43,328 nucleotides of DNA from contig VYDB01000152.1 in the NCBI GenBank assembly GCA_009843635.1, positions 1 through 43,328 of the forward strand, written 5' to 3'. The notes below the pieces were generated by a model. That model worked only from the letters and a program-made list of their open reading frames with translations. It did no database searches and was not told the DNA's origin. Position numbers and translations under genes: made by a program. The first letter of the stretch is position 1. Each line of letters opens with the position of its first letter. The stretch is from Gammaproteobacteria bacterium. Its GTDB lineage: Bacteria; Pseudomonadota; Gammaproteobacteria; Pseudomonadales; Azotimanducaceae. Positions 821 to 3,800 of the stretch are shown piece after piece.

Positions 821-3800
821 ATGAAAATTCCTTGAGGCCACCTCCACGGGCGTTGGGCTGGCCGAGAGTTGGTCGAGAAGACCGGTGGCGTCATGCACCC
901 GTCCGGCGATGACGTGGATCACTTCCTGCTCGCGCTGGACCACGCCCTCCACCCGCACTAGCTGGCCTTGGAGGATTTCCGCCCGATAACGGTCCAGAAC
1001 AGTGCTCCAAACCACGACATTGATGTTGCCGGTTTCGTCCTCCAAGGTCAGAAAGACGACGCCGGTGGCGGTGCCGGGCCGTTGCCGGCAGGTGATGAGG
1101 CCAGCCACTTGCGCGAACTGCCCGTGGCGGCAATGCGCCAAGCCGGCCGCCGTGCGGCAACGGCGCAGGACGGGTGCATCGCGCAGCAGGGACAGGGGAT
1201 GAGGGCCCAATGACAGGCCGAGGTAACGGTAATCCTGCTTGAGATTTTCACCGACCCCAGGCTCAGCCAAGGCCACCTCGGTACGGTACGGCGCTGCCGC
1301 CTTGGCGGCACGCCAGATGGCAGCGGGCTGATCGACGCCGGCGGCGTCCCAATGGGCTTGGTGGCGATGGCCCGAAAGCGAGGCCAAGGCGCCGGACCGG
1401 GCCAGAAAGCCCAGCTCCCGGTTGTTCAATTCGGCCCGGGCGCGTAGATCGTCCACATCCTGGAACGGCTGGGCAGCGGCGATGCGCACAGCCGCCTCTT
1501 CGGAGAGGCCCTTGACTTGGCGCAGACCAACGCGCAACGCGCCCTGATTCGGCTCGAGGGCGTCCTGCCCTTGATGGGGTTCAGAAAGCGTCCGAGGCTT
1601 CTTCATGCGAGGGGCACTAGGAACACCGGCCCCGCAACACAGTTGCGGGGCGTCGCCGCCTGCCGAAGCGGTGCTTCGGCTCGGGCTACGCCCGACCGGT
1701 AGCGACCCCTCGCGCTCCCCGGCTGAGGGCTCCAACCGGAAATCCCAGCCGCTGGCCTGCACGTCCACGGGGCGAACTTCGATGTCGTGGCGCAGCGCGT
1801 CCTGGATCAGTTGGGAGGGGGAATAGAAGCCCATGGGCAAGCTGTTCAGGAGGCCGGCGTAGAAGGCCGCCGGTTCATTGCGCTTGAGCCACGCGGAAAC
1901 GTAAACCAGCAGCGCAAAGCTGGCCGCATGGGATTCCGGGAAGCCGTATTCGCCAAAGCCCTTGATCTGCTCAAACACCCGGCGGGCGAAGCTCTCGCTG
2001 TGGCCCCGCGCCAGCATGCCGTCGATGAGCTTGCGCTCGAACTTCTCAAGCCCGCCGCGGCGCTGCCAAGCGGCCATGGCCCGGCGCAGCTCATCGGCTT
2101 CGCCGGCGGTGAAGCCGGCGGCGACCATGGCCAGCTCGATCACCTGCTCCTGGAAGATGGGCACCCCCAAGGTGCGCTCCAGCACCTTGCGCACGGCTTC
2201 GTTGGGATAGGTGACGGGCTCCTTGCCGTCACGGCGGCGCAGGTAGGGATGCACCATGTCGCCTTGAATGGGGCCGGGCCGGACGATGGCCACTTCGATG
2301 ACCAAATCGTAGAAGCGCTCGGGCCGCAGGCGCGGCAGCATGGCCATCTGCGCCCGGGACTCCACCTGAAAGACGCCGATGCTGTCGCCCTTCTGCAGCA
2401 TCTCATAGGTGCTCGCCTCCTCCGGCGGAATCCGGTCCATGGTCAAGGCTTCGGGGCCTTGGCGGCAACAGAAGCCGTTGGCCAAATCGAGGGTCTTGCG
2501 AATGGCGGTGAGCATGCCGAGGCCGAGCACGTCCACCTTCAAAAGCCCCAGCGATTCCAAGTCGTTCTTGTCCCATTGGATCACGGTGCGCTCATCCATG
2601 GCGGCGTTCTCAATGGGCACGAGCTGCGCCAAGGGGCCAGCCGAGATCACAAAGCCGCCGACATGCTGGGAGAGATGCCGGGGAAAGCCCAGAATTTGAT
2701 CGACCAAGGCGATGTAACGGTGCACGGACGGGCTGTCCGGATCCGCCCCCGCGGCGGCCAAGCGCTGGCCGAACTGGTCCCGGCGGTCCCACCAAGCCAT
2801 GGACTTGGCCAGCAGATCGACGAAGCTGGCATCAAGGCCCAAGGCCTTGCCCACATCGCGCAGGGCGCTGCGCGGCCGATAAGTGATGACCGTGGCGGCC
2901 AAGGCGGCGCGGTTGCGTCCATATTTGCCGTAGATGTATTGAATGACCTCCTCCCGGCGCTCGTGCTCGAAATCCACGTCGATATCCGGGGGCTCCTGCC
3001 GCTCCTTGGAAATGAAGCGCTCAAACAGCACATGCTGGCGCGATGGATCAACCTCAGTGATGCCCAAGCAGTAGCAGACCGCGGAGTTGGCCGCCGAGCC
3101 GCGCCCTTGGCAAAGAATGCCCTGGCTGCGAGCGAAGCGGACAATGTCCTCAATGGTCAGGAAGTAGTATTCGTAGCCCAGTTCGGCGATGAGCTTAAGC
3201 TCGCGCTCGATCAACGTCCTGACCGCATCGGGAACGTCCGGTTGGCCCGGCCAACGCCGGTTCGCCCCTTCATAGGTGAGCTGGCGCAGCCAAGCGGCCG
3301 GCGTCATGGCCAGCGGCACCAGTTCCCGGGGGTATTCGTAGCGCAGCTCGCCCAAGGAGAAATGGCAGGCGCCCGCAATCTGGACGGCTTCGGCCAGCAT
3401 GTCCTCGGGATACAGGCTCGCCAGCGTCTCCAAGGGACGCAGATGCCGTTCGGCATTGGGCGTCAGTTGGGTGCCGAGTTCGCCGACGGGCTGCTTGAGG
3501 CGAATGGCGGCGAGGGTGTCCAGCAACGGCTTACGTTCCGCCCGATGCATGAGCACGTTGTTGGCAGCAGTGATGGGCAGGTCGAGGCGCATCGACAGGC
3601 GCAGCGCCTTGGCCATGCGGTCGAGGTCGCGGCCATCAAGGAAAAGCCCTAGGCCAATCCAGAGGCGCGGGCAGCAGCGGCGGACTTCCCGGCCTTCGAG
3701 CAGGAGTTCGTCAATGCCCGCATCCCGAGGCGCCCACAAGGCCAAGCAATCGTCGGCCCGGCCCTTGAAATCATCAATATGCAGCGCGTATTCGCCCTTC

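Follow-up and report, generated by a model that had tools for sequence, protein, structure and literature searches.

A gene for an error-prone DNA polymerase, dnaE2, stays open across a palindromic, cloverleaf-like segment in the window (the whole stretch of 43,328 nucleotides analysed here), which raises the question of what this segment is and how a polymerase gene comes to carry it. The source genome of the window (G000) is a 4.49-Mb assembly in 152 contigs with a completeness of 96.46%, and G001-G008 belong to the same genus; G002 is the sister species (DnaE2 97% identical over residues 28-802), and G001 and G006 are single-contig genomes, both carrying the repeat that we term REP-1. Among named records, the DnaE2 sequences closest to that of the window come from metagenome-assembled Gammaproteobacteria/Pseudomonadales (p16x65bins.14, CAR3_bin_15, an uncultured Pseudomonadales chromosome and RHO2_bin_33), and some of these names denote sponge samples.

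The dnaE2 insert consists of two nested repeats

The features of the locus are as follows:

818-4192, minus strand: dnaE2 (error-prone DNA polymerase), host of the insert, 1124 aa, open through the element
1604-1734, minus strand: composite palindromic element (REP-1 with the core in its loop), in the dnaE2 frame, ~44 residues
1607-1614: left arm of the REP-1 outer stem, GCGAGGGG, pairing with 1706-1713 in the RNA fold
1706-1732: REP-1 right arm CCCCTCGC (1706-1713) and tail GCTCCCCGGCTGAGGGCTC (1714-1732), 43 genome matches, reversed control 0
1626-1706: core, a three-hairpin cassette of ~81 bp, from model R1 (training set includes the window copy) and covariation
774-818: simple REP-1 copy at the dnaE2 stop, palindrome 781-788 / 792-799, tail 800-818

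The stems put forward in the preliminary description are real, as their positions match the sequence: an outer stem of 8 bp (1607-1614 / 1706-1713), a second closing stem of nine positions with one C-A mismatch and one G-U (1652-1660 / 1698-1706), and three hairpins of 10 bp (hp1, 1629-1638 / 1642-1651, span 1629-1651), 8 bp (hp2, 1662-1669 / 1673-1680, span 1662-1680) and 6 bp (hp3, 1681-1686 / 1690-1695, span 1681-1695). The RNA fold of 1590-1745 lies below all 200 shuffles on both strands (plus strand, -83.4 kcal/mol, z -3.93, 0/200 equally low; minus strand, z -3.27, 0/200), with the minimum-energy fold of the plus strand giving these stems together with flank pairing and that of the minus strand being partly different. 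The claim that the segment is read in the dnaE2 frame also holds, as dnaE2 is open straight across 1604-1734 and gains ~44 residues. What does not hold is the cloverleaf as one repeat family. While it is mobile, structured and tolerated in genes, REP-1 and the core are each found alone, and we rejected the single-unit reading: 1604-1734 is two nested repeats, a 45-bp REP-1 and a different three-hairpin core in its loop.

REP-1 is abundant. Its arm plus tail (CCCCTCGCGCTCCCCGGCTGAGGGCTC) matches G000 43 times at up to three mismatches, and the reversed pattern does not match at all; two of the matches are the window copies (including 792-818) and 41 lie outside the window, providing the further genomic copies on which the preliminary description had made its reading depend. 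Most of the copies displayed form a simple hairpin of 45 bp whose loop has 3-4 bases, a few have a degenerate left arm, some units stand head to tail at 44-46 bp spacing, and copies at gene ends are also seen. The short copy noted earlier as outer stem and tail only, touching the dnaE2 stop, is indeed of that kind, with its extent corrected from 778-820 to 774-818; it ends at 818, where the complement of the stop codon (818-820) begins. A degenerate REP-1 is its counterpart at the dnaE2 stop of G007, and the sequence at this place differs from REP-1 in G004, G008, G001 and G006. A different palindrome (GGCCTGTTCACACTATCTC...) is found at the G004 dnaE2 stop (L214), where the window has REP-1. 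REP-1 is present in eight of the nine genomes of the genus and in G014; it occurs without the core (model R2, E ≤0.001) in G001, G004, G006, G007, G008 and G014, and is found in G005 too.

The core, for its part, occurs three times in G000. On C47 (the window) and C50 the ~81-bp core lies inside a REP-1 loop, and on C58 it has another inverted-repeat setting and no REP-1. G002 has composites on C65 (98% identical), C54, C18, C407 and C95 (partial, at a contig end), its C54 and C50 of G000 being orthologous sites, and the composite occupies six distinct sites across both genomes, one cut by a contig end. G007 is without the element at the C50 site, but the intergenic sequence is too divergent to place the ends. 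The core stands without REP-1 also in G005 and G003, where model R2 (E ≤0.001) finds 28 cores and 10 core matches, respectively; the 131-bp query gives three matches in G003, and the two listed fall in the core. At 16 displayed G005 loci the core has a different inverted-repeat setting of about 190 bp or more. A high-copy G005 element of that size (L181 and others) with long inverted repeats (GAGAGYAGGTRTGCGG...) contains the core, and one copy of it, in L197, seems to be without.

We consider it probable that the dnaE2 segment is a composite mobile palindrome, in which a non-autonomous REP-1 with a captured core rides as a passenger in DnaE2.

REP-1 lies in frame in unrelated genes

We examined 31 distinct G000 sites, namely those in the retrieved loci where 60 bases of flank were present on either side and the left arm could be recognised; at nine of them REP-1 is in frame within an open reading frame by frame composition and translation, the composition being clear on both sides for six and partial or one-sided for L015, L026 and L049:

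dnaE2: 44 residues; one Pfam HHH_6 match spans the insert
L014, TPR/peptidase-like protein: Pfam domain on one side only
L015, OppC-like permease: Pfam domains on both sides
L016, MFS transporter: one MFS_1 match spans the insert
L025, AAA-ATPase-like protein: one AAA-ATPase_like match spans the insert
L026, PilW-like protein: one PilW match spans the insert, below the curated cut-off
L028, amine oxidase: one Amino_oxidase match spans the insert
L029, Rieske oxygenase: two units, 30 residues; Rieske/KshA_C domains on both sides
L049, DctQ C-terminal end: Pfam domain on one side only

A single Pfam match spans the insert in five of the nine genes (PilW being the one below cut-off). Absence from orthologs was checked for two genes, giving an exact empty site for the amine oxidase and none for dnaE2. 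The amine-oxidase ortholog of G008 (L244, 88% identical) is without exactly 15 residues, or 45 bp, the DNA reading GGTTCCATGAC in G008 versus GGTTCCATG-[45 bp]-AC in G000, and the 7-base word TTCCATG stands on either side of the insert. Mobility and tolerance within genes, both proposed from the window, are borne out by the 43 copies with this exact empty site and by the nine in-frame sites.

Direct repeats of at least 6 bp flank REP-1 at five of the 31 sites (shuffle mean 1.37, P 0.003), one of them (L030) due to a neighbouring partial unit, and as their lengths vary a fixed target duplication is unsupported. REP-1 is not a MITE either, since there is no fixed-length duplication and, by inspection, no terminal inverted repeat in the 45-bp unit. 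REP-1 is a protein-coding palindromic element, as a kind and not as a clade.

REP-1 is absent from the Y1_Tnp loci

REP-1 might be an ordinary REP whose mobilising RAYT (Y1 tyrosine transposase) has escaped recognition or has since been lost, which would account for its REP-like traits, namely a short palindrome, high copy number, tandem arrays and gene-end copies. Genes matching Y1_Tnp do exist, one each in G000, G002 and G007, with two matches in G003, one of them below the Pfam cut-off. At L178 (G000:C121), L208 and L209 the Y1_Tnp gene is flanked by another repeat, REP-2 (GAGGGCGTCCCGCCCTCGATTGGATTC), which gives a REPtron-like arrangement.

If such an enzyme were mobilising REP-1, one would look for REP-1 beside its gene. 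We found no REP-1 match at the five Y1_Tnp loci (L178 and L207-L210), taken with ~1.5 kb of flank to either side as far as the contigs reach. REP-2, by contrast, flanks the Y1_Tnp genes of G002 and G007 and the sole such (RAYT-like) gene detected in G000, an arrangement like that of REP/RAYT REPtrons. A Y1_Tnp match is moreover absent from six of the nine relatives searched, including the single-contig, REP-1-bearing G001 and G006, and neither at the Y1_Tnp loci nor among the relatives searched was a mobilising enzyme for REP-1 found. Finally, the palindrome foot of REP-1 is neither GTAG nor CGTC: by inspection, the displayed copies have neither the GTAG at the foot that defines GTAG REPs nor the CGTC tag at one end that, according to PMC3733652, defines CGTC REPs and Rickettsia palindromic elements (RPEs). 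Together this leaves movement by a hidden or lost RAYT a possibility, but an unlikely one.

REP-1 is nevertheless similar in its habits to the intragenic GTAG/CGTC REPs described in PMC3733652, which are likewise short palindromes of high copy number that lie at gene ends and in frame in DNA-repair genes including DnaE2; unlike them, it has no GTAG/CGTC ends and no RAYT partner that we found, and it holds a structured cassette in some of its loops. In-gene REP-like elements, DnaE2 included, are already published (PMC3733652), and it is the core that is newer.

REP-1 recurs in the imuB-dnaE2 operon

Upstream of dnaE2 lies a second gene of the mutagenesis operon:

4107-5663, minus strand: imuB-like gene (Pfam IMS), whose relatives in other genomes carry in-frame REP-1

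We scanned 104 DnaE2 loci with at least 600 bp upstream for REP-1 at up to three mismatches and found it in or beside imuB-dnaE2 at seven loci of six distinct genomes (G000, G008, G002, G005, L110 and L111); a degenerate copy in G007 (L069, L126) was found by BLAST only. The ImuB of G005 has in-frame REP-1 at two places, and L110 and L111 have it in frame at one shared ImuB site, with two units in L110 versus one in L111. Pfam IMS supports imuB of L110 and of the window, and gives no match for the partial L111 and L091 frames; L091, too, carries REP-1 units in frame in ImuB. Insertion recurs in this operon, which is no more than suggestive, the locus having been chosen for having an insertion.

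It is conceivable that the insert has been co-opted and is kept by selection, either as a folded RNA that regulates the imuA-imuB-dnaE2 message or as a peptide that tunes the polymerase. In its favour, in-frame REP-1 is also found at places that played no part in the choice of locus: at the DnaE2 start of G002, twice in ImuB of G005 and in ImuB of L110/L111. PMC3733652 also lists repair genes that carry REPs, DnaE2 among them, and places palindromic REPs inside the DnaE2 genes of other bacteria. Yet the sites, orientations and unit numbers of REP-1 vary between genomes, the seven operon loci stand against the 104 scanned, and REP-1 is also found in genes as unrelated as transporters, the Rieske oxygenase and PilW, all of which makes co-option improbable.

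The parallel with Rickettsia drawn in the preliminary description is sound as a likeness. RPEs, too, are palindromes translated in frame in unrelated proteins (PMC10969869 and PMC3733652), and the ~150 bp that the review gives for them is similar to the length of our element. A true member of the RPE family is nonetheless very hard to credit: the taxon is a distant one, the basic unit is 45 bp and the composite form rare, and the ends of REP-1 are without the CGTC tag that PMC3733652 gives for the RPEs of R. conorii.

The insert is foreign to the DnaE2 linker

We searched 110 DnaE2 loci by nucleotide, some records being present twice, and aligned 104 of them across the insertion place (16 were displayed). 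Outside the window locus the 131-bp segment is found only in G002 (L072, the same as L100 by coordinates), at the 5′ end of dnaE2, where a composite and a short unit share the frame that the segment has in the window (frame judged by eye); the contig of G002 stops before the linker. In the linker itself none of the 110 loci except the window's own has the segment, in agreement with the earlier prediction that relatives would lack it. That the segment is the normal DnaE2 sequence of the lineage is therefore scarcely tenable: it is in frame, and linker length varies among relatives, some being as long, but the same DNA lies at unrelated sites and elsewhere in the sister species' dnaE2, and these copies contradict the reading. 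Length alone is indeed not unusual, as the linkers of L142 and L148 have 51 and 47 residues opposite window residues 820-866, without the window sequence.

One further repeat lies close by:

1556-1582: degenerate REP-2 copy (4 mismatches), inside the dnaE2 linker

The DnaE2 linker is hypervariable in relatives and has REP-2 relics in G000, G004 and G007, which is why no exact empty site can be drawn for dnaE2. At the linker site used in the window, G008 has a core-less REP-1 whose left arm is degenerate. The dnaE2 of G008 is divided between two contigs, and on the second of these a further two REP-1 units lie upstream of the C-terminal part. Against E. coli Pol III alpha (5fku_A), the main alignment runs to residue 825 of that protein and a second, weak one (10.5 bits) starts at 829, with residues 821-883 of the window protein falling between the two aligned stretches. 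By this alignment the DnaE2 insert occupies what is a short turn in the E. coli protein. Tolerance by dnaE2 can be ascribed to the unit of 45 bp (15 codons; exact in one case) and the long form of ~132 bp (44 codons), and also to several frames being stop-free at a site that is a turn of few residues in E. coli: of the 22 single short REP-1 units, between 10 and 22 are stop-free depending on the frame, and the 131-bp long form is so in three of six frames. By inspection, the real start of dnaE2 is likely the ATG of MAIS (4123).

The core belongs to a covarying structured family

A covariance model of the core (R1), built from 10 close cores including the window copy, finds the core under strict filters in seven of 100 genomes of the taxonomic family (own included) and five of 37 genera. 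Model R2 extends this to the class, with matches at E ≤0.001 in nine of 275 genomes, G000 counted among them; those in the eight others are weak (36-48 bits) and their E-values rough. For covariation we used 26 chosen loci with matches at E ≤5e-5 (29 matches, 28 distinct). At 28 of 31 pairs both sides have changed, and 94.8% of cells pair, compared with 36-43% for a slid-partner control, in an alignment that is biased towards the model structure; RNAalifold on the core rows gives 30 pairs and nearly the same fold. The structure claimed for the element is hence upheld by covarying helices (28/31 pairs) and by a fold below all shuffles.

Rfam has no match at gathering score in the window, and we rejected a known RNA near the element, as the three matches there, at E up to 5, are far below their thresholds. 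At the 26 further core loci the gathering-score matches are to tRNA, tmRNA, 5S and LSU only. With no description found in Rfam 15 or the open-licence literature, in which PMC3733652 came closest, we regard the core family as undescribed on the basis of these scans and that literature.

Of 26 divergent copies (those of G003, of other genera and of the class, related copies not being independent in the counts given here), 12 lie within 170 bp of a tRNA, 5S or tmRNA gene as a raw count by coordinates. ARAGORN places a tRNA in five of the eight loci L272-L279 and in six of 16 others (L257, L259, L260, L262, L265 and L270, of which L257 and L262 share one); L188 has a tmRNA, and L264 has 5S and LSU rRNA. 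Adjacency to tRNA genes as a general trait of the core was rejected, as 14 loci have no ARAGORN tRNA (L052, L066, L255, L256, L258, L263, L264, L267-L269, L271, L273, L274 and L276).

Exact direct repeats of at least 15 bp flank 13 of the 26 divergent cores versus none of 208 random places in the same loci; those of L188, L272 and L276 include element sequence (tandem or partial copies), leaving about 10 clean. Exact direct repeats of 21 to 70 bp bracket the core at L259, L264, L267, L270, L275, L278 and L279. By coordinates, the repeat contains the 5′ part of the neighbouring tRNA gene at L259, L270, L275 and L278 and the 3′ part of 5S rRNA at L264, so that one copy of the gene stays whole. 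In G003 (L188) a core copy adjoins the tmRNA gene, beside a direct repeat of 29 bp that takes up some of the element's own sequence.

Hairpins with an ANGGAN hexaloop on a stem of at least 3 bp are found on one strand in 19 of the 26 divergent cores (28 hairpins), compared with a mean of 0.42 and a maximum of three of the 26 loci after shuffling and none on the opposite strand. They are seen in the minus orientation of the core at L052, L188, L255-L260, L263-L265, L267, L268 and L270. The ANGGAN hairpin is hp1, and some copies have an extra hairpin, e.g. GCC-AGGGAY-GGC. ANGGAN is the RsmA/CsrA consensus, according to PMC3791407. None of the 10 window-type copies (G000, G002 and G005) has such a loop, and a CsrA reading of the window copy was rejected on this count. 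The divergent cores resemble sponge RNAs of the RsmY/RsmZ/CsrB type in having ANGGAN hexaloop hairpins on one strand only (19/26). Unlike RsmY/RsmZ/CsrB, the window copy is without the loops, the core family is multicopy with no Rfam match, and half of its divergent copies are flanked by direct repeats.

We tentatively suggest that the core may be what remains locally of a mobile, RNA-structured gammaproteobacterial element not described before, of about 130-200 bp with three to four covarying hairpins, whose ANGGAN loops possibly recruit CsrA/RsmA and which would insert within or next to tRNA, 5S and tmRNA genes, producing long target duplications of variable length (15 to 70 bp in the copies observed); the GGA loops would have been lost in the lineage of the window, where REP-1 hairpins then carried the core into a protein gene. 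Target duplications of variable length can leave an intact gene copy and would suit a copy mechanism, e.g. target-primed synthesis.

A probable passenger palindrome and its core

The composite mobile palindrome could have arisen as follows. REP-1, non-autonomous and 45 bp long, would move as a single unit, probably as single-stranded hairpin DNA and by means of an enzyme acting in trans; it sometimes stands in tandem, and it would insert with no fixed target duplication. One REP-1 would have gained the ~81-bp core in its loop in the common ancestor of the G000 species and G002, and the composite would then have come to lie at six sites across both species, among them a surface turn of DnaE2. 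It is copy numbers and distribution that favour addition of the core to REP-1 over an origin of REP-1 from the composite; the corresponding dnaE2 site of G008 has a core-less REP-1, though its left arm is degenerate and the gene is divided between contigs. That REP-1 captured the core, that it moves by a single-stranded route and that the DnaE2 insert is a passenger are inferences, as is any role of the ANGGAN loops.

With this locus, palindromic insertion in frame is documented for an uncultured lineage of Gammaproteobacteria, together with an exact empty site for one gene, and the repeated insertions in the ImuB-DnaE2 operon make the question of whether such inserts are junk or used testable in orthologous pairs. 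The core adds a covarying structured family without an Rfam 15 match, many copies of which lie by tRNA genes or between long direct repeats. Should this family prove to be a mobile RNA element, both the way it inserts and a possible connection with CsrA/RsmA regulation would be new.
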